A stretch of DNA of 64,000 nucleotides, from the NCBI GenBank assembly GCA_020048055.1, contig JAIFNA010000009.1, positions 1 to 64,000 of the forward strand, in the 5' to 3' direction. Position numbers and translations under genes: made by a program. This document shows, piece by piece, positions 3,235-31,037 of the stretch; the first letter of the stretch is position 1; every line of letters begins with the position of its first letter. This stretch comes from Arcobacter sp. GTDB lineage: Bacteria; Campylobacterota; Campylobacteria; Campylobacterales; Arcobacteraceae. Under the pieces are notes generated by a model, which saw only the letters and a program-made list of their open reading frames with translations, had not been told where the DNA came from and did no database searches.

Positions 3235-4392
3235 ATGTTTCAATTTATCAAAAACTTTTCTATTTTTGAAAATAACGATCACAGAAAATTAGGTGCTCCA
3301 AAAAACGATACTCAAAAAGCAATCAAGAGCTCATTAGGGAAAAATCAAACCTCCATTACTACTGCTTGGGATGAATATTACAAAGAGGCTAAAAAATATA
3401 ATCCGCTGGATTATATTCGTAGCAATGAATATTTTGTTGGGCTAGAGCATAAAACAGGAGACCCCTGTTATTTAAAAGACAAAGAGGTGGTGCACTCAGC
3501 AGTAATCGGACCTACAAGAAGTGGAAAAGGTATTTTTTTCGGGTACAAAATTGTTGAATCTTTACGAAAAGGACAGGGTGTAGCGGTCTTTGACGTTAAA
3601 GAGGATAATTTTTTAGTACAAGTTTGTCTTGAGGAACTTGCCCGCCAAAATAGACCCGATGATTTGGTCATCATGAACTGGCCAAATGATGTTAGCTACA
3701 AAACATTTGAAAATGATAACCCAAGTGAAGTGGCTAAAAAACTTACAATTATGTTAAATCTTATTGAAGTTGAAGCAGAAGCTGGAGCAAGTTTTTATCG
3801 TAAGAGCGAAAGGATAGCACTCCAAAAGATTGTTAATCTTTTTTATAGTTCAAATGAACTTTTGGGAGTAGAGTTTAAAAAAGATTTACTTAATTTGATT
3901 CAATTTATTAAGTATCTTACTGAAGATTTATCAAATTTCCTTTCTTTTGCAAAAGAGAAAAATCAGAATAAACCAAATTATGATTTATTAAAACTGTATG
4001 GAAAAAGATATTTTGATCCGAAATTATTTGAAAAATGTAATGATTTTAAAGAACGAGATTTGCCAACTTTAGAGAGTTTGTATTTTAGTTTCAAAGAGTT
4101 TGAAAATATCAAATTCAGTGAAGATAAAAGCATTGAAGATGCAATATTTAGAGGGAAAATCGTTTATATCAAAAGTGATATGCTTGATGAGGCAGCATTA
4201 AAGTTTCTAAAGTTTGTTATTGCTGATATTGTAACTAAAGCAAAACGACAAAAAGGGGCTAATTGTCTTATTTTAGCGGATGAAATTTCTTTTTATCCTA
4301 CTCAGATTTTAAGTGCTGCACTTGCAACAAGTGCAGGATTTGGTTTAAGATGGTTTCTTGCCTATCAAGACGATGGACAAATTGGAAATTAA
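3235..4392 (+). CDS. Type IV coupling protein (VirD4/TraD family), N-terminal part before an in-frame stop
   Basis: 385 residues of a conjugative coupling ATPase, which links the relaxosome to the secretion channel at the inner membrane. Walker A is GPTRSGKG (92-99), Walker B is CLILADE (Asp-Glu about 349-350), followed by a motif ending LAYQDDGQIGN where family members continue. The TAA at 4390-4392 is in the same frame as the next ORF (4408-4818), which carries the expected C-terminal part; only AAT CTC AAG GCT GCT separates them. No clear N-terminal membrane segments are visible, unlike TraD or VirD4. It is probably one gene broken by a nonsense change, though a truncated product or stop readthrough cannot be excluded. 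Confidence 0.8.
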   Translation: MFQFIKNFSIFENNDHRKLGAPKNDTQKAIKSSLGKNQTSITTAWDEYYKEAKKYNPLDYIRSNEYFVGLEHKTGDPCYLKDKEVVHSAVIGPTRSGKGIFFGYKIVESLRKGQGVAVFDVKEDNFLVQVCLEELARQNRPDDLVIMNWPNDVSYKTFENDNPSEVAKKLTIMLNLIEVEAEAGASFYRKSERIALQKIVNLFYSSNELLGVEFKKDLLNLIQFIKYLTEDLSNFLSFAKEKNQNKPNYDLLKLYGKRYFDPKLFEKCNDFKERDLPTLESLYFSFKEFENIKFSEDKSIEDAIFRGKIVYIKSDMLDEAALKFLKFVIADIVTKAKRQKGANCLILADEISFYPTQILSAALATSAGFGLRWFLAYQDDGQIGN

Positions 4393-4407
4393 AATCTCAA
4401 GGCTGCT

Positions 4408-4818
4408 ATGAAATCGAATTGCCAGACCAAAATATATTACAAATCAAGTGATTTGAAAACCTTGGAGTACATCGAGAAATTGAGCGGAAAAGAGTTAATA
4501 ACTAAAATTGCAAAAAATGGCGAAGAGATAACAATTAGGCAAGAAACAGAAGATTATCTCAATATCACAGCACAAAGGGCTTTTCCAAAAACACAAGTTG
4601 CTATCCTACTTCAAGAGAGTTTACCTTTTACTTTGATTTTTGATACTCAACCAATACCAGTGGCTCATGAATTTGATTGGGATGAAATAAATAATAAAAA
4701 AGTTTTAATAAATTTACTGGAACTCACAAAAGATTTTTCAGTTTTAGAAGATAAAAAAGCTCAGGTAGTTAACGTAAGTGATGAAGATGATTATATGGTG
4801 GAAGAATTTGACATATAA
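4408..4818 (+). CDS. C-terminal part of the interrupted coupling protein
   Basis: 136 residues in frame with the preceding ORF. The opening CQTKIYYKSSDLKTLEYIEKLSGK is the segment that in VirD4/TraD-family proteins follows the Q-rich motif after Walker B (the NC.TKI.Y...D..T region), and the tail is acidic (EDDYMVEEFDI), as in many coupling proteins that dock partners through their C-terminus. No ribosome site precedes the internal ATG, so independent translation is doubtful. Read through the single TAA, 3235-4818 would give about 527 residues, a normal size for the family. Confidence 0.65.
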   Translation: MKSNCQTKIYYKSSDLKTLEYIEKLSGKELITKIAKNGEEITIRQETEDYLNITAQRAFPKTQVAILLQESLPFTLIFDTQPIPVAHEFDWDEINNKKVLINLLELTKDFSVLEDKKAQVVNVSDEDDYMVEEFDI

Positions 4819-4841
4819 TATTTAATTTAATGTTAATACCG

Positions 4842-4903
4842 AAAAAGTGGAAATTTGAATTAGTGTAGAGAGTAAATCTCAATCAAATAAAAAAAGGGAA
4901 AAA
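4842..4903 (+). repeat. Conserved leader repeat, copy 2
   Basis: Full copy including GTGGAAATTTGAATTAG, the GAGAGTAAATCTC hairpin and an AAAAAGGGAAAAA ribosome site, ending at the ATG at 4904. It lacks the GC after TCTC found in copies 1, 3 and 6. Confidence 0.9.
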
Positions 4904-5140
4904 ATGACTTTGTACGAAGAGCATAAATTAAAATGTAAAAATCAGGGCATTAAAATAGTAAGAGATTCATTTGACTTAAATGATGAGAATCTAAAAAGAG
5001 AAGTTGAAATGTTGAGAAAGGAAAATGAACGAAGCTTATTTGAGAAAATAAATGGAAATTATGCACAATTCTTGCTCGACTTTCTTCCTCTTTTTTTATT
5101 TTACGGCGCGTTAATAGCAATACTTTTTTACAAAGGATAA
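4904..5140 (+). CDS. Small single-span membrane protein
   Basis: 78 residues: a charged, probably helical N-terminal two thirds (coiled-coil-like around 24-48) and one C-terminal membrane span (about 56-75, LLDFLPLFLFYGALIAILFY) ending in KG. I recognise no family. A leader repeat lies directly before it and the topoisomerase gene starts 5 nt after its stop, so the two are probably one transcript. The perfect leader and ribosome site argue that it is a genuine gene. Confidence 0.7.
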   Translation: MTLYEEHKLKCKNQGIKIVRDSFDLNDENLKREVEMLRKENERSLFEKINGNYAQFLLDFLPLFLFYGALIAILFYKG

Positions 5141-5145
5141 AATAC

Positions 5146-7251
5146 ATGACACTTTACATTACAGAGAAACCATCTCAAGTTTCAGCTTTAGGTGATGCTT
5201 TAGCATCCAACAATATCAAAGACTATAGAATAATTGCTTTAGCAGGGCATTTTTTAGCACTCAATGATTTAAAAGATTACGGAATTATAGGAAAATGGGA
5301 CGATCTTGTTTCAGAAAACAAAATCCCATTTATTCCTCAAGTATTTGAAAAAAAAATCAAACCAGATTCTAAGTTTGTGAGAAATGGAAAAGAAGTAACT
5401 TACAGTTATAAAGATAGACTGGAAGGAATTAAAGAGGAGATTGAAAACTGCAACAATATTATTATCGCAACGGATCCAGATAACGAGGGAGCGACTTTAG
5501 CGCTTGAACTTATTCAACTTTATAATGCAATTCATAAAGTGATTGGTATGATAAATATGTCAAAACTTGACTTGACATCTTTATCAAAAGAGGTAAACAC
5601 CATCGACAAAATCCCATATTTTAATATGTATCAAGCAGGAGACAGTCGAGCTGCTTTCGATTGGAGTTTTGGAATGAATGCCACAATCCTTGCAACCACA
5701 AAATTTGGAAATGGGAATTTACTTAATCTTGGCGGTGTCAAATTACCAACAATTCGTATGGTGGTGGAGAGAGACAAAGAATTTGAAACATTTAAAGAGA
5801 TTCCATATTTTACAATTTCAGCAAAAGCAAAAGTCGGGGATGATGTATTTTCGGTGAAAATACAAGGTGAAGATGAGAGATTTACAAGTGAATCACTTGC
5901 AAATGATCTAATTAATGAACTCAAAGCAAATGGCTATAAATCAGTAGTTTCAGAGTTTAGTGAAACTAAAAAATCAACAGCACCATCAAAACCTTATTCT
6001 CTTACTGATTTGCAAGCAGCAGCGAATAGAAAGTTCAAATACACAGCGAGTGAAACACTTGAAGTTGCTCAAAAACTATATCAAGACTTCAAGGTTCAAT
6101 CATATCCGAGAACTGATAGCAACTATTATGCTGAAGGCGAATTTGAAAGTGCAGGGGAAATTTTAAGAAGTTTGGCGCCAATTAAAGGATTTGAAAATAT
6201 TTTAAACCTTGTAAATGTTGAAAGCCCATTAAAAAGAAAAATCTTTGATGACTCAAAAATCGAAGCTCATACAGCACTTAGCCCACTTGCTTCAATTACT
6301 TTAACTATTTTTCAAAATCTATCAGCGAGAGAGCAAAATATTTTTTCACTTGTTGCTTCACGCTATGCAATCCAGTTCATGAACGATTATAAATATCTTG
6401 AAATCAAAGGGAAAGCTACTCAAAACGATGTAAACATCGTATTTGGAGAAAAATTAACTTTAGAAAATGGCTTCAAAACATTTGAAAAAGATGAAGCTGA
6501 AGAGGATGAAAAAACACAAATTGGGGGTCGAACTATTCCAATTCTCAATAATGGAGATATTATCGAAATTTTAGAAGATAGTATCGAAATCAAACAAGGC
6601 TTTACAAAGCCTCGTCCACGATTTAAAGAGGCTTCATTACTTTTAGCAATGGAGAAAGTTTCACGATTCTTTGAAGATAAAGAGGTAAAGGAGCATCTAG
6701 GAGACGGAGGAATTGGAACGCCATCAACTAGAGCGAAAATCCTTGAAGAACTCAAAACAGCTAAAGCTGGAGATACCCCATATTTTGAACTCAACTCAAA
6801 AGGGGAATTGGTATCTACCTCAAAAGCAAGGTATCTAATAAATACTATTCCAAGTGAGATATCTTCCCCTGTTTTACGGGCAAAGATGGAATCTAAACTC
6901 AAGGAAATCGTAAAAGGTACTCTTACTAAAGAGGCTTATTTAGTAGAAGTTAGAGAGATTGTAAACAACATTTGCTCACTCATCGCATCAAGTGATGCTG
7001 AAAAAATGGAGAAAAAAGAAAGACCAGGTGCTGAAAGCGGTGAACTTGTAGAAACCCCAAAAACTTATCGTTTGGGTGATAAATTTATCTTTAAAACTTT
7101 TAGAGACAAAGCTATTACTAAAGCTCAAGCTAAAAAGATTTTAGAGGGTAGCAAAGTCAAAATGAAGCTTAAAAGCAAAGCTGGAAAAGACTATGAGATG
7201 AATGTGTTTTTAAAAGATGGAAAATTGGATGGGGAGTTTGTCAAAGGGTAA
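5146..7251 (+). CDS. topB: DNA topoisomerase III (type IA)
   Basis: 701 residues with type IA architecture. The N-terminal TOPRIM domain (about 1-150) has the catalytic Glu in ITEKPSQ (Glu7) and the acidic DPDNEG (110-115). The active-site Tyr lies in QSYPRTD (about 320). The GDGGIGTPSTRA segment (about 522-533) is typical of TopB/TraE. The C-terminus (about 640-701) is a small domain found in plasmid-type enzymes. The enzyme decatenates single-strand-linked DNA; plasmid copies such as RP4 TraE accompany conjugation and replication. It is 5 nt downstream of the small membrane protein and followed by leader copy 3. It is the element's enzyme, not the chromosomal TopA. Confidence 0.93.
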   Translation: MTLYITEKPSQVSALGDALASNNIKDYRIIALAGHFLALNDLKDYGIIGKWDDLVSENKIPFIPQVFEKKIKPDSKFVRNGKEVTYSYKDRLEGIKEEIENCNNIIIATDPDNEGATLALELIQLYNAIHKVIGMINMSKLDLTSLSKEVNTIDKIPYFNMYQAGDSRAAFDWSFGMNATILATTKFGNGNLLNLGGVKLPTIRMVVERDKEFETFKEIPYFTISAKAKVGDDVFSVKIQGEDERFTSESLANDLINELKANGYKSVVSEFSETKKSTAPSKPYSLTDLQAAANRKFKYTASETLEVAQKLYQDFKVQSYPRTDSNYYAEGEFESAGEILRSLAPIKGFENILNLVNVESPLKRKIFDDSKIEAHTALSPLASITLTIFQNLSAREQNIFSLVASRYAIQFMNDYKYLEIKGKATQNDVNIVFGEKLTLENGFKTFEKDEAEEDEKTQIGGRTIPILNNGDIIEILEDSIEIKQGFTKPRPRFKEASLLLAMEKVSRFFEDKEVKEHLGDGGIGTPSTRAKILEELKTAKAGDTPYFELNSKGELVSTSKARYLINTIPSEISSPVLRAKMESKLKEIVKGTLTKEAYLVEVREIVNNICSLIASSDAEKMEKKERPGAESGELVETPKTYRLGDKFIFKTFRDKAITKAQAKKILEGSKVKMKLKSKAGKDYEMNVFLKDGKLDGEFVKG

Positions 7252-25985: not shown

Positions 25986-27371
25986 TTAAAATTCGACCAT
26001 TACTTTTGTAAATTCATCCTCAACACTTTTTATATTTATTGTAAAACTATGCAAATCAAAAATCGTCTTTACAATACTAAGCCCAAGCCCACTTCCATCC
26101 CTTTTGCTTCTAGTCTTATCAACCCTATAAAATCTATCAAATATTTTTTCAATATCCTCTTTTGGAATACCACATCCAAAATCCTCCACCAAAAGTGAAT
26201 TTTTAGTAAGTGAGATGTTAATTTTTGAATTTTCATTTGAGTATTTTATGGCGTTTTCTAAAATATTATTTATCGCAATTTTAAGTAAAGTTTGATTTCC
26301 GTATTTTGTTATTGGCTCTAAATCAAGCACAACTAAATCTATATTTTTTTGGTTTGCAAACGCTTTTTTTTCTTTTATTGACTCATCTAAAATCTCATCA
26401 ATATAAATCTCTTCAAAGTGTTCAACGATATAAGAATCAGAATTACTAGACAAAAATAATATTTTCTCAATCGTATCCTCCAAATAGTTAAGCTCTCCCA
26501 AAGTTGAGCTCAAAATCTCCTTATACTCTTTGCTTGTCCTATCTTTTCTAAGCCCAACTTCAATCTCACCCCTGATTATTGTAAGTGGAGTTTTTAGTTC
26601 ATGTGAGGCATTTTGTCCAAAATCTTTCACTTTGTTGTAGTTGTTTTGTAAATCATCAATTAGTTTATTGAAAGTTGAAATAAGCTCATCAATCTCCTTT
26701 GCAATTCCTGTTTGTGGGATACTATGGGCTTTCCCATCGAGTTTGATGTTTTTAACCTCATCAACTACTACTTTTGTAGCAATTAGCGATTTTGAGATTA
26801 TAAAATAAACAGCAACTAAAATAATACCAAGCAAACTAAGTAGTCCAATCCAAAGTAAAAGTTTTAGATTTTGCAAAAAAGGTGTGTGTTTGTTGTAAGG
26901 GATTCCGCATTGTAAAACTGTCCGTGAGCCATCTTTTAGCTCTATTAAAGTTGTTGCCACTTTAATCTTTTTTGTTGTTAGTAGCTGTATATTTTCATCT
27001 GTAAAAATTATTTCGTGAGGTTTTAAATTTTCTATATTTATGTTGTTAAAGTCCAAGCTTGATGATTTTAAATCATTTGATTTTAAAACAATTTTTGCTG
27101 TTTTATGTTTGTCAAAAACAACAATTTGTCCGTAAAGTATATCAACATCAAATTCGTGTTTTATGTATTCAAATTCACTTGCATTATTTAAGTAAGTATT
27201 AAATTCGTGCCTCAAATCTTTAGTTACAGTTGTTAAAGAATCTTCAATTGATTGATTGTATGATTGTTTAAATGCGTCTATTAGAAAATATCCAAAGCCA
27301 TAAAAAATAGTAAAAAGAAATAAAAATAATCCAACCAAGAGTTGAAATTTTAGGTTTTTAAATAGTTTCAT
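25986..27371 (-). CDS. Sensor histidine kinase of the apbE operon
   Basis: 461 residues from ATG 27371 (a GTG one codon earlier is also possible). Two membrane spans (about 9-31, 168-192) enclose a periplasmic sensor region of about 135 residues with no named domain; HAMP-like segment, HisKA with H in FGQNASHELKTPL, N box (NNILENAIKYS), DFGCGI and GSGLGLSI. Layout is that of CusS/ArsS kinases. It overlaps the response-regulator gene by 14 nt and ends the operon, so it forms a two-component system likely to control the upstream genes. Confidence 0.92.
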   Translation of the reverse strand: MKLFKNLKFQLLVGLFLFLFTIFYGFGYFLIDAFKQSYNQSIEDSLTTVTKDLRHEFNTYLNNASEFEYIKHEFDVDILYGQIVVFDKHKTAKIVLKSNDLKSSSLDFNNINIENLKPHEIIFTDENIQLLTTKKIKVATTLIELKDGSRTVLQCGIPYNKHTPFLQNLKLLLWIGLLSLLGIILVAVYFIISKSLIATKVVVDEVKNIKLDGKAHSIPQTGIAKEIDELISTFNKLIDDLQNNYNKVKDFGQNASHELKTPLTIIRGEIEVGLRKDRTSKEYKEILSSTLGELNYLEDTIEKILFLSSNSDSYIVEHFEEIYIDEILDESIKEKKAFANQKNIDLVVLDLEPITKYGNQTLLKIAINNILENAIKYSNENSKINISLTKNSLLVEDFGCGIPKEDIEKIFDRFYRVDKTRSKRDGSGLGLSIVKTIFDLHSFTINIKSVEDEFTKVMVEF

Positions 27372-28035
27372 CACTGATTTTGTATCCTTGATTTCTGTAT
27401 GTTTTGATTAGTTTTAGTGGAAAATTTTTATCTATTTTATTTCTGAGTCTATAAATATAAACACTTAAAATATTGCTATTTGAAATATTGTCATCATATC
27501 CTATTGTACTATTTTGTAGAGTTTCCTCATCGATAATTGCATTTTTATTTCTCATTAAATACTCCAAAATAGCATACTCTTTTGCTGTTAATTTTATTTG
27601 CTTATCATCTCTAGTAACTATTTTTGTGGTGGCATTTATAGTTAAGTTTGCAATTTGTAAAATATTGTCTTTTTGCTCATTTTTTCGTAGTTGTACCCTT
27701 ATTCGAGCTAATAATTCATCAAAACTAAAAGGTTTTGTGAGATAATCATCAGCACCTAAATTTAAAAATGTAACCTTATCTTCAATTGTACTTTTTGCAC
27801 TTAAGATTATTATTGGTGTTTTGATTTTGTTCCCCCTAATGTTCTTGCAAACCACATAACCATCACTTTTTGGAATCATAATATCTAAAATGATCGCGTC
27901 ATAATTATTAACTGAAGCTAGATAAATCGCATCATCACCATCAACTGCTAAATCAACACTAAAATACTCTTCACTAAGCCCTTTTTTTATAAATGAAGCT
28001 ATTTTTACATCATCTTCAACTAGTAATATTTTCAT
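27358..28035 (-). CDS. OmpR-family response regulator of the apbE operon
   Basis: 225 residues. Receiver domain (1-115) with the acidic pair EDD, phospho-acceptor Asp in IILDIMIP, and LTKPF; C-terminal winged helix (about 125-222) with LTAKEYAILEYL and YIYRLRNKID. All conserved residues are present. The gene overlaps that of its kinase. Its place downstream of tlpA, DUF4266, DUF3570, apbE and the small membrane protein suggests it regulates them. Confidence 0.93.
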   Translation of the reverse strand: MKILLVEDDVKIASFIKKGLSEEYFSVDLAVDGDDAIYLASVNNYDAIILDIMIPKSDGYVVCKNIRGNKIKTPIIILSAKSTIEDKVTFLNLGADDYLTKPFSFDELLARIRVQLRKNEQKDNILQIANLTINATTKIVTRDDKQIKLTAKEYAILEYLMRNKNAIIDEETLQNSTIGYDDNISNSNILSVYIYRLRNKIDKNFPLKLIKTYRNQGYKISDETI

Positions 28036-28059: not shown

Positions 28060-28254
28060 CTACATCCATCTGCTAAAAAACTGTTTCAAAACTATATGTA
28101 AAATTGCAAATACAATAGTGCCAACAATTAAAGAATCTATAAAATCATAACTTTCCATATGTTCATTTAAAAATTCATCCAAGCCATAAACTATAAATAA
28201 TGAAAACATAAACGCTACAAAAGAGGATACAAAGCTTGGGCTATCGTTATACAT
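28060..28254 (-). CDS. Small two-span membrane protein
   Basis: 64 residues with two membrane spans (about 7-27 and 38-58) and a short acidic turn between them. No family recognised. It lies between the apbE gene and the response regulator, in the same direction and with gaps of about 25 nt on both sides, so it is probably part of this operon. A conserved partner of the flavinylation system is possible; nothing else identifies it. Confidence 0.65.
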   Translation of the reverse strand: MYNDSPSFVSSFVAFMFSLFIVYGLDEFLNEHMESYDFIDSLIVGTIVFAILHIVLKQFFSRWM

Positions 28255-28280: not shown

Positions 28281-29138
28281 TTATTCAAAATTTTCATATA
28301 TCACCTTTAAGTCTTTTGTGATTTTTATTGTTTTGTGTTTTGTTTTGAGATTTTTCTCTATCATCAGAGAAGTTGAAAATACACCACTAGTTACTGTGTT
28401 TGATGAGATAACACTGACCGATAAAAGCTCACTCTTAGAATCATTTTTACCAATAATATGAGACATTGTTTTGTTTTCTATTTTGTAGCTTCTTTCATAG
28501 TTTGCAGAGGTTGTAAGTGCTTCATCACCAAGTTCTACAAAAGCGATATTTTCATTTTGATTTATTGGATTTTTAATTCCTATTGTAAATTTTTCCCCAT
28601 TTGGTTTCCCACCAATTACAGATAAATCACCACCAAAATTTACAAATGCGTGTTTTATTTTCTTTCTTTTAAGTATTTTTATAGCCTCATCAACTGCAAA
28701 TTCTTTAACAACACCACCCAAATCAAGCATTGTAAATTCATTATCAAAAACTATTTTCTCTTTTTTAATACTAAAGTGTTCACAGCCGATAAATGGAGCT
28801 AATCTGCTCTTTCCCTCTTCAAACTCTTTTAGCGTAGATAGTGTGTAGAGTTGTTTTATTGTAGCTATTGTGATGTCAAAAATGCCGTTTGTTTGGTTGT
28901 AATACATTTGTGAGCGAGTTAATAAATCTTTTGTTTTGGTATCTAATGTGTTGATTTCTCGTTTGTTGATTTTTGAAATCAATGAGTTTGGATCAAAATA
29001 GTTATATTTTTTCTCCAAATCTTTTGTAGCGATTAAAATCTCTTTTGCTATATCCCTAGCTATCTCTTTACTTGAGGTGTAGATGACAACCTCACATGGG
29101 GTTGTCATCGCTTCAAATTGGAAAACATTTTTAATCAA
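28281..29138 (-). CDS. apbE: ApbE-like FAD:protein FMN transferase (divergent)
   Basis: 285 residues. ApbE motifs in order: AMTTPCEV at the start, FDI near 107, MLDLGGVVKEFAVDEA (about 152-167, matching DLGG..KG.A.D), VNFGGDL, and TTSANYER. ApbE moves FMN from FAD to a Thr or Ser of target proteins. Odd points: no signal peptide; the start is TTG with AAGG upstream and an in-frame TGA just before it; the HI.DP.TG motif is HIIGKND; and the metal-binding Asp near the C-terminus (D-A-L-A-T) is replaced, the segment reading SGVFSTS. Activity may therefore be altered. Confidence 0.82.
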   Translation of the reverse strand: MIKNVFQFEAMTTPCEVVIYTSSKEIARDIAKEILIATKDLEKKYNYFDPNSLISKINKREINTLDTKTKDLLTRSQMYYNQTNGIFDITIATIKQLYTLSTLKEFEEGKSRLAPFIGCEHFSIKKEKIVFDNEFTMLDLGGVVKEFAVDEAIKILKRKKIKHAFVNFGGDLSVIGGKPNGEKFTIGIKNPINQNENIAFVELGDEALTTSANYERSYKIENKTMSHIIGKNDSKSELLSVSVISSNTVTSGVFSTSLMIEKNLKTKHKTIKITKDLKVIYENFE

Positions 29139-29168
29139 TCTTAACCTTCAAATTAAATTTATTGTGGG

Positions 29169-30278
29169 TTAAAATTTGTATTTTATCCCAGTTGCAAAAG
29201 TTGTAGCAGTTAGTCCTGTACTTTGGTCATACATATTTGCTCCAAAATTATAACTTAGTTTGTCGTTTATTTTATAATCAACACTCATTTTGTATGTAAG
29301 TGCATTAAAATCTTTCACCCTCTCATCACTTGATGCAAATTTTTCATTTGTAAAGCTTTCACTATAAAAGTTTGCTTTTGTTTGTGTGTAGTATCTTAAG
29401 CCTCCACCTAAAATGAGTTTATCACTTAGTTCATAGTAAAATAAACTATCTAGTGTGTGAGATGTAATATCCCAATCATCACTATAAAATTTGTAGTTTA
29501 TTTGAGATGAAAGTTGCTCATTTATGGCTTTTTGGTAGCCAAGTTTCAAGCCATAACTAGTTTTTGATTCTGGTTTATTTTCCCTTTCAACTGTTATTGT
29601 ATTGTTTCTTACAACATTGTGATAAGGACTACTTAGATATCCATCTTCGTTTGAAAAGAATAAACCAACACTAGCAACGCTTGAACTATTTAATACTTGT
29701 GAAAAGCCAACTTGTGCATTTAGTACCGAGTTTGTCATCTTTTTACTTGCACTACTTGCTGTATCTACTTTTTTAATCAAAACTTGATTGCTTTGGTAGG
29801 CTCCACCAAATGAGATACTTTGGTTTTTTGAGCCATCAAGATAGTGTAGGTATGAACTACTAAGTTCTGCTGAATAAAAATCACTCTCTGTACTATAATT
29901 TAGCCCAGTTTGAAGTTCGTCTCTATTTTGCATCCTTGTGGTTAAATTTACCCCAAGTGCTGTTCTTTGCTCTTCAAATTTGATGTTTCCTTTTTTAGGA
30001 ATTGCTGCTGTTGTTGTACTTCTGCTATAAGCCGATGCCCCACTTGTTGCGTCATAATAAGTAGGACTTGCACCACTTACACTATCACTAACAAGGTCAA
30101 CATTAAGTGTATAATCGGTTCCGAACTCTTTATTTATCTCAATCGATGGTGCTAAAACACTAACTCTTGAATCATTTTCGCTGTAATGTAAAACTTCAAC
30201 ATTTACAAAATCTTCCCCATTTGCATTTATACTTGCTAGGGCAATACAAGTTATGATTGATAATTTTCTTAATTGCAT
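29169..30278 (-). CDS. DUF3570-type outer-membrane beta-barrel protein with two flavinylation motifs
   Basis: 369 residues from ATG 30278, chosen because GGAGG lies upstream at good distance; a TTG two codons earlier is the other choice. A signal peptide (about 1-20) is followed by alternating hydrophobic strands typical of a porin-like barrel to the C-terminal Phe (ATGIKYKF). The N-terminal part matches DUF3570 (VEVLHYSENDSRVSV, TYT-type strands). Residues 65-71 (DSVSGAS) and 76-82 (DATSGAS) both fit the ApbE target consensus Dxx(S/T)GA(S/T). apbE lies next. It overlaps the DUF4266 stop by 10 nt. Covalent FMN on a surface loop is inferred. Confidence 0.8.
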   Translation of the reverse strand: MQLRKLSIITCIALASINANGEDFVNVEVLHYSENDSRVSVLAPSIEINKEFGTDYTLNVDLVSDSVSGASPTYYDATSGASAYSRSTTTAAIPKKGNIKFEEQRTALGVNLTTRMQNRDELQTGLNYSTESDFYSAELSSSYLHYLDGSKNQSISFGGAYQSNQVLIKKVDTASSASKKMTNSVLNAQVGFSQVLNSSSVASVGLFFSNEDGYLSSPYHNVVRNNTITVERENKPESKTSYGLKLGYQKAINEQLSSQINYKFYSDDWDITSHTLDSLFYYELSDKLILGGGLRYYTQTKANFYSESFTNEKFASSDERVKDFNALTYKMSVDYKINDKLSYNFGANMYDQSTGLTATTFATGIKYKF

Positions 30279-30481
30279 CCGCAACCCCCTCCACCAATAG
30301 CTCCGCCACCTTTGGTAGCTTCTTTTGAATAATAAATATGCTCATCAAATTTTTTTGTTAGCTTATTTAAACCACCTTCTTTCATCGTCTCTTTAGCCAA
30401 AGTTGCTTTCTCCCAAGGCTGAACACTTGTAACACAACCACTAAATATAATTAGTGGTAAAACCAAAATTATCCTTTTCAT
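30269..30481 (-). CDS. DUF4266-type small lipoprotein
   Basis: 70 residues. An N-terminal signal with lipobox (IFSGC, Cys about 16) predicts lipid anchoring; the middle contains EKATLAKETM and a tail of Gly residues ends GGGGCGCN. This is the DUF4266 pattern. The terminal Cys-Gly-Cys could bind a metal or be modified. It lies between tlpA and the DUF3570 gene with overlaps of 4 and 10 nt, so all three are translated together. Function unknown; association with an exported redox system is inferred from its neighbours. Confidence 0.8.
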   Translation of the reverse strand: MKRIILVLPLIIFSGCVTSVQPWEKATLAKETMKEGGLNKLTKKFDEHIYYSKEATKGGGAIGGGGCGCN

Positions 30482-30915
30482 TTTTTCCCCTTACAAAGTT
30501 TTAGTTGCTCATCTAGTTTCTCTTCAAAGTTTGATACTGCTCCAAACAATTTACCACAAACTTGATTGTTTTTTACTATATAAACAGCAGGAATACCAAG
30601 AGGCTTGTAACTATTTATAATCTCGTTTGTTGTGTCATTAATAACTTTAAAATTCAGATGTGTTGCCATTTTTTCTTGAAATTTTTTCCCATCTTTTTCA
30701 TTTTTATCTACATCAATCCCTATAAGTTCAATATTTTCCCCTTTAAGATGCTCATATTTTTTTGACAAAATAGGGAGTTCTTTTTCACAAGAACTGCACC
30801 AAGAGGCAAAAAAATCAAGAATATAAGTTTTGTCATTTTCTAAATTAAGTTTATCACTACCAAAAAGCCCATTAAGGGAAAGTAAAGCACAAATTACCGC
30901 TAGCTTTTTAACCAT
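30478..30915 (-). CDS. TlpA-like periplasmic thioredoxin
   Basis: 145 residues: signal peptide (about 1-19), then a thioredoxin fold with the active site WCSSC (Cys40, Cys43), a cis-Pro segment (GIPAVYIV) and the TlpA-type ELPIL after the active site. It probably reduces or exchanges disulfides in the periplasm. First gene of the leftward operon leading to DUF4266, DUF3570 and apbE; a likely substrate is the Cys-Gly-Cys end of the DUF4266 lipoprotein, but this is inference. Confidence 0.88.
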   Translation of the reverse strand: MVKKLAVICALLSLNGLFGSDKLNLENDKTYILDFFASWCSSCEKELPILSKKYEHLKGENIELIGIDVDKNEKDGKKFQEKMATHLNFKVINDTTNEIINSYKPLGIPAVYIVKNNQVCGKLFGAVSNFEEKLDEQLKLCKGKK

Positions 30916-31037
30916 TTTTATCCTTTTTGTTTTAATTTTATTTTGTGTATTTTATACTAATATATGAACCCAATATGAATATTTTGTAAATATTTAAATA
31001 AATACAATGAAAAAATCTAAAAATAAAATAGGGATAG

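Follow-up and report, generated by a model that had tools for sequence, protein, structure and literature searches.

A Campylobacterota member of the thioredoxin/DUF4266/DUF3570/ApbE system whose outer-membrane barrel may be flavinylated before export

Introduction

Our literature search found a single paper naming DUF3570 or DUF4266, that of Meheust et al. 2021 (PMC8238504), which describes the system closest to the locus reported here. In that account, DUF3570 proteins linked to the flavin transferase ApbE carry two conserved [S/T]GA[S/T] motifs, and clusters of ApbE, DUF3570, a thioredoxin and DUF4266 occur both with DsbD (227 clusters) and without it (316 clusters). The DUF3570 of Chlorobium luteolum (ABB24424.1) is flavinylated by its cognate ApbE (ABB24423.1) at both motifs, and flavinylation is lost only when both serines are replaced; when signal-peptide-truncated proteins were co-expressed, the cell pellet contained the bulk of the DUF3570 (PMC8238504). 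A flavinylated barrel has thus been known since 2021. Most ApbEs studied are secreted and modify targets outside the cytoplasm (PMC12052999), and in Klebsiella pneumoniae the target of a cytosolic ApbE is a soluble fumarate reductase (reviewed in PMC12052999). On the side of regulation, the OmpR-type regulator of Campylobacter DccRS switches on genes whose products are periplasmic and membrane proteins (PMC9449129).

Here we analyse a locus in a 64,000-nucleotide stretch of Arcobacter DNA (the window). Because a homologue had already been flavinylated and the cluster had been described in 2021, the locus is a new member, from the Campylobacterota, of the described thioredoxin/DUF4266/DUF3570/ApbE system.

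Results

Gene content and distribution of the locus

The locus is an operon on the minus strand that runs from trx through the genes for DUF4266, DUF3570, ApbE and a 64-residue membrane protein to those for a response regulator and a sensor kinase. An earlier reading made from the sequence only had placed the first four genes correctly, all on the minus strand.

30478 to 30915, minus strand: exported TlpA/ResA-like thioredoxin, CSSC active site (Pfam PF13905, 9.8e-16; AhpC-TSA, 3.2e-15; hydrophobic N-terminus)
30269 to 30481, minus strand: small DUF4266 lipoprotein, lipobox FSGC, C-terminus GGGGCGCN (CxC) (Pfam PF14086, 2.5e-18)
30269 to 30278, minus strand: 10-base gene overlap, with the DUF3570 ATG within the CN-stop end of DUF4266
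29169 to 30278, minus strand: predicted DUF3570 outer-membrane barrel of about 16 strands (PF12094, 9.1e-60; AlphaFold2 model)
28281 to 29138, minus strand: ApbE flavin transferase with no signal peptide, TTG start (PF02424, 1.5e-51; in-frame stop upstream)
28060 to 28254, minus strand: predicted two-helix membrane protein of 64 residues, between apbE and the response regulator gene
27358 to 28035, minus strand: OmpR-family response regulator, CopR/HprR/PmrA-like (profile match)
25986 to 27374, minus strand: sensor kinase in which a single Cys ahead of the second membrane helix is invariant (profile match)

The four genes that define the system are thus clustered in the window. The DUF3570 profile (PF12094) matches at 203 bits against a gathering score of 25, and the preferred start is the ATG at 30278 over a TTG at 30284. 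The signature motifs of ApbE (DLGGxxK, NFGGD and His) are conserved. The 10-base overlap of the DUF4266 and DUF3570 genes is seen again in most clusters, and the CxC end of DUF4266 is kept in 20 of 21. A Vibrio cluster retains CGCN where the genes do not overlap, which indicates that the CxCN end is conserved in its own right. The description of DUF4266 as a Cys-ended lipoprotein was nearly right: the CxC tail is there, and the last residues are CGCN, so that Asn is terminal. The cluster is not of the strict DsbD type, in which dsbD lies inside the cluster; dsbD is absent from the window cluster and is found unlinked at G000:C3:128230 of the same genome. The 64-residue membrane protein has no Pfam match and no relatives among the fetched loci; we considered it as a conserved part of the system and rejected this, since among those loci it is present in that of the window alone.

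Among 397 sampled Campylobacterota genomes, 10 have a DUF3570 match, of which a single one is sub-threshold, and DUF4266 is found in exactly the other nine. The closest relative of the window is in an Arcobacter MAG, at 66% identity, in keeping with a probable origin from the Arcobacteraceae. Scans gave two relatives in genome contigs and five on plasmids, and none in IMG/VR.

Flavinylation motifs in DUF3570

Two exact ApbE target motifs lie near the N-terminus of DUF3570, as in the described substrates of ApbE; their coordinates and their spacing of 11 residues from start to start are exactly those of the sequence-only reading.

30066 to 30086, minus strand: flavinylation motif 1, DSVSGAS (residues 65 to 71 from the ATG at 30278)
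30033 to 30053, minus strand: flavinylation motif 2, DATSGAS (residues 76 to 82 from the same ATG)
29745 to 29765, minus strand: degenerate third motif, DTASSAS, at the position of the third motif in window-like relatives

In each motif ApbE would place FMN on the last Ser, which we take to be the acceptor by analogy with NqrC. When the protein was shuffled at constant composition, at least one D..[ST]GA[ST] appeared in 0.35% of shuffles and at least two in 0.0005% (about 1 in 200,000), and the pattern occurs in no other reading frame of at least 100 amino acids within the window. When the 2.0-Mb genome is scanned in full, the pattern at codon level matches six times, twice in DUF3570. The shuffles and the genome-wide scan together led us to reject a chance origin of the DUF3570 motifs.

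Two of the other four genome matches are true D..[ST]GA[ST] motifs, and these two allow for a reading in which the DUF3570 motifs are decorative, the protein is a plain porin, and ApbE acts on another target. They lie, however, in a ZnuB-like transmembrane protein (DLTSGAT) and a SucC-like metabolic enzyme (DSKSGAS). The genome encodes one single ApbE and a search of it for an FMN_bind protein found none, which leaves DUF3570 as the obvious substrate; the conservation of the motifs and the published flavinylation of a homologue (PMC8238504) also argue against decorative motifs, and we regard that reading as very improbable. That the DUF3570 of the window organism is flavinylated is, conversely, very likely. 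The sequence-only reading had not been able to verify DUF3570 flavinylation, for which the C. luteolum experiments of PMC8238504 provide the demonstration.

Aligning 21 DUF3570s reveals how far the motifs persist. Motifs 1 and 2 are exact in all eight window-like Campylobacterota proteins, a persistence on which the sequence-only reading had staked its proposal. Seven of the eight also carry a third exact motif, D[AST]x[ST]GAS, which follows after about 100 residues in a loop whose length varies; at this site the window protein has the near miss DTASSAS. In four of the seven, a C-x(n)-C pair directly precedes the third motif (L030, 6750 to 7874; L031, 7100 to 8248; L032, 204 to 1340; L033, 3854 to 5005), for example CKLGNDECDSSSGAS; the pair is possibly a dithiol beside an FMN. 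A sister Campylobacterota group (L034 to L038) has mostly loosened motifs, DAISAAS and D[AT]VxGAS, in which the Asp and the acceptor Ser are kept, and one of its five members (L037) is without the second motif. It had been suggested to check whether the motifs persist only when apbE is adjacent. They do not depend on adjacency: three Gemmatimonadota DUF3570s with no adjoining apbE retain one exact motif, and in two genomes the motifs are intact with apbE elsewhere, in trans (G248, with DUF3570 in L032 and apbE in L073; and G357, L031).

Predicted structure of the barrel

AlphaFold2, given 16 aligned proteins from the window and the loci, models DUF3570 as a barrel of about 16 strands, an even number as expected of such barrels (pLDDT 89.3, pTM 0.83). 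A search by sequence for a solved DUF3570 homologue found none. The top solved structural matches are full-length, with Z scores in the range of 17 to 22, and comprise PelB (Z 21.8), BamA, BcsC, CymA and OmpG (Z 17.7). The model and these matches bear out the earlier prediction of an outer-membrane barrel.

The matches to porins and to PelB and BcsC align over the whole length and place both termini in the periplasm, which implies that each loop leading from an odd to an even strand faces outward. In the model, motif 1 (mature residues 44 to 50) is at the top of strand 3, motif 2 (mature residues 55 to 61) is in the loop after strand 3, and the third site (mature residues 151 to 157) is in the loop that joins strands 7 and 8. 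All motifs and long loops are therefore modelled on one side of the barrel, which should face outward, and the flavins would end up on loops at the extracellular rim. The motif loops are modelled at low confidence, with pLDDT below 50 at mature residues 58 to 64 and 66 to 70, so that the flavins may face either the outside or the lumen. The mature DUF3570 has zero Cys in the window and in most relatives, so that flavins are its sole evident redox group.

Site of flavin attachment

An in-frame stop just upstream of the TTG start of the window apbE leaves no room for a signal peptide, and the protein has neither a signal peptide nor a lipobox. This alters the earlier picture of the locus, since it changes where modification would occur. 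We assigned signal peptides by visual inspection of start codons and hydrophobic stretches rather than with a trained predictor. On this basis, 14 of 16 clusters, from Campylobacterota, Vibrio and two Gemmatimonadota, have a DUF3570-adjoining ApbE with no signal peptide, and most of them have no coding room for it. The exceptions, in the clusters of G399 and Hymenobacter, are compatible with an exported ApbE as the ancestral state. Six of eight unlinked ApbEs from the same genomes have signal or lipoprotein peptides (L057, L058, L059, L061, L063 and L074); L073 and L077 have none.

Because the window ApbE has no export signal and is the only ApbE of its genome, the barrel is probably flavinylated before export. 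We consider it probable that FMN is attached to the unfolded DUF3570 preprotein in the cytoplasm, and that Sec export and Bam insertion would follow. Cytoplasmic modification agrees with the co-expression of signal-peptide-truncated proteins described in PMC8238504. The alternative is that the window ApbE is exported in some unrecognised way and flavinylates the barrel in the periplasm, with the rest of the model the same. Such a route would conform to most studied ApbEs, which are secreted and act outside the cytoplasm (PMC12052999), and to the two DUF3570 clusters with a signal-peptide ApbE; however, the stop codon means that no signal peptide can be encoded, and the genome has no second ApbE to do the work. 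We consider periplasmic flavinylation somewhat unlikely.

Two ApbE genes deserve separate mention. One from an Arcobacter MAG (L016, 1907 to 2638) is missing about 40 residues of its N-terminal part, and the same genome has a complete second copy (L052). The gene in L077 (1435 to 2280; G288:C1) encodes a second signal-peptide-free ApbE that is not beside DUF3570; it is near genes for an EF-hand protein and a TonB-receptor-like C-terminus.

Electron path and haem-protein neighbours

The neighbours of related clusters bear on what the flavins might do. dsbD is inside the cluster in Vibrio and in the relatives L035 and L038. Exported CxxCH (haem) proteins open about half of the related clusters; in nine (L031, L033, L034, L035, L036, L038, L051, L054 and L055) the cluster is directly preceded by one or more genes for exported proteins with at least two CxxCH motifs. 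One of these neighbours is weakly MtrC/MtrF-like and one is hydrazine synthase alpha-like. No cytochrome gene adjoins the window cluster. The presence of CxxCH neighbours suggests that electrons are exchanged at the outer membrane. Two arrangements among them stand out: in L034, L035, L036 and L038 the cluster starts with two CxxCH lipoproteins, of 2 and of 3 to 4 haem motifs, and a Gemmatimonadota lipoprotein (L017, 2315 to 4378) that combines PD40 and hydrazine-synthase-alpha-like domains with two CxxCH motifs is encoded just before trx, DUF4266 and DUF3570.

The most likely role of the system is that thiol electrons from the thioredoxin and DUF4266 are handed to surface flavins. Electrons would probably pass from DsbD (the unlinked gene) to the exported thioredoxin, on to the CxC tail of DUF4266, then to the barrel flavins and finally to a surface acceptor; for this direction of flow we put the chances a little above even. 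Sequence sets no direction, and flavin and dithiol potentials are close, so that barrel flavins might instead oxidise a surface donor and pass electrons inward to periplasmic thiols, or merely buffer the redox state. Yet DsbD, linked in some relatives, normally pushes electrons outward, and the locus encodes no electron sink for the thioredoxin; we consider inward flow unlikely. A further possibility is that the thioredoxin, DUF4266 and DsbD act in the maturation of proteins (by reducing disulfides or by attaching haem to cytochrome c) and are not flavin donors. Maturation is a common role of TlpA/ResA-like thioredoxins and of DsbD, and CxxCH proteins adjoin about half of the clusters, but there is no Cys to act on in the mature DUF3570 of the window and most relatives, and the window cluster retains the thioredoxin and DUF4266 with no cytochrome gene. 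This makes a maturation role quite unlikely, and outward transfer from thiols to surface flavins is the reading that we carry forward.

A candidate operator upstream of trx

The promoter region of the operon contains two candidate elements.

30963 to 30979, minus strand: direct repeat TTCATATTGGGTTCATA, proposed response-regulator operator
30951 to 30956, minus strand: candidate -10 box, TATAAA

In each of the four operons in which two-component genes follow immediately (window, L016, L030 and L052), trx is preceded by the repeat, TTCAT-N6-TTCATA, with a -10-like box close behind it; the repeat is absent before trx in same-clade operons with no such system (L029, L032 and L033). It is expected 0.27 times per 64 kb. 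We propose from this pattern that the TTCAT repeat is the operator of the operon's own response regulator, which would probably activate the operon promoter through it. The DccRS box of Campylobacter, with the motif TTCAC, is likewise a direct repeat of TTCA; its two halves are spaced alike and lie over the -35 region. The whole genome has seven TTCAT-N6-TTCATA sites versus five for a reversed control pattern, and only the trx site is promoter-like; on these counts, a large regulon of the response regulator was rejected.

With regard to possible copper control, the kinase and the regulator resemble CopRS/HprSR types yet score below curated cut-offs; against TIGR01387 (CopR/CzcR heavy-metal regulators) the regulator reaches 214 bits, below the cut-off of 279.2, and is not assigned to that family. 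In L052 a phosphoethanolamine transferase (EptA) gene (3618 to 5207) lies between apbE and the response regulator gene.

Discussion

Published flavinylation, motif conservation and the barrel model support the earlier proposal of an outer-membrane flavin redox device. The signal-peptide-free ApbE, the outward motif loops and the haem-protein neighbours lead to a specific model, in which flavins loaded in the cytoplasm are displayed at the cell surface. We assign a probability of roughly 65% to the whole explanation: cytoplasmic FMN loading, surface flavins, thiol-fed electrons and an operon regulated through TTCAT repeats. We offer tentatively, at somewhat less than even odds, a bolder version: a cytosolic ApbE would flavinylate DUF3570 barrels ahead of their export, as many as three covalently bound FMNs would travel with each barrel by way of Sec and Bam to loops on the outer face, and the barrels would form a haem-free, thiol-fed electron outlet at the surface. 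If this version is true, a covalently flavinylated outer-membrane protein would be made before secretion. The operon-specific regulator offers a way to get at the signal that induces the operon.

What looks new is the absence of a signal peptide from ApbE, together with the third motif, the cytochrome neighbours and a regulator specific to the operon; on DUF3570 clusters, we found no mention of a cytosolic ApbE, cytochrome neighbours or a regulator in the available parts of PMC8238504. Compared by its published description, the C. luteolum protein shares with that of the window the Pfam family, two N-terminal [S/T]GA[S/T] motifs and an adjoining cognate ApbE; in contrast, the window belongs to another phylum and has a third (degenerate) motif and a two-component system. 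As in the DsbD-type thioredoxin/flavin hybrid clusters of that paper, ApbE, DUF3570, a thioredoxin and a CxC-ended DUF4266 are in one operon, here in the DsbD-free variant; unlike those clusters, the window has dsbD unlinked and an ApbE with no signal peptide. The window regulator is OmpR-type, like that of DccRS, but its motif is TTCAT rather than TTCAC and the window genome has one promoter-like site. Finally, the window ApbE is, like that of K. pneumoniae, without a signal peptide and would work in the cytoplasm as proposed here; however, whereas the K. pneumoniae substrate stays in the cytoplasm, the substrate in the window is an exported outer-membrane protein.
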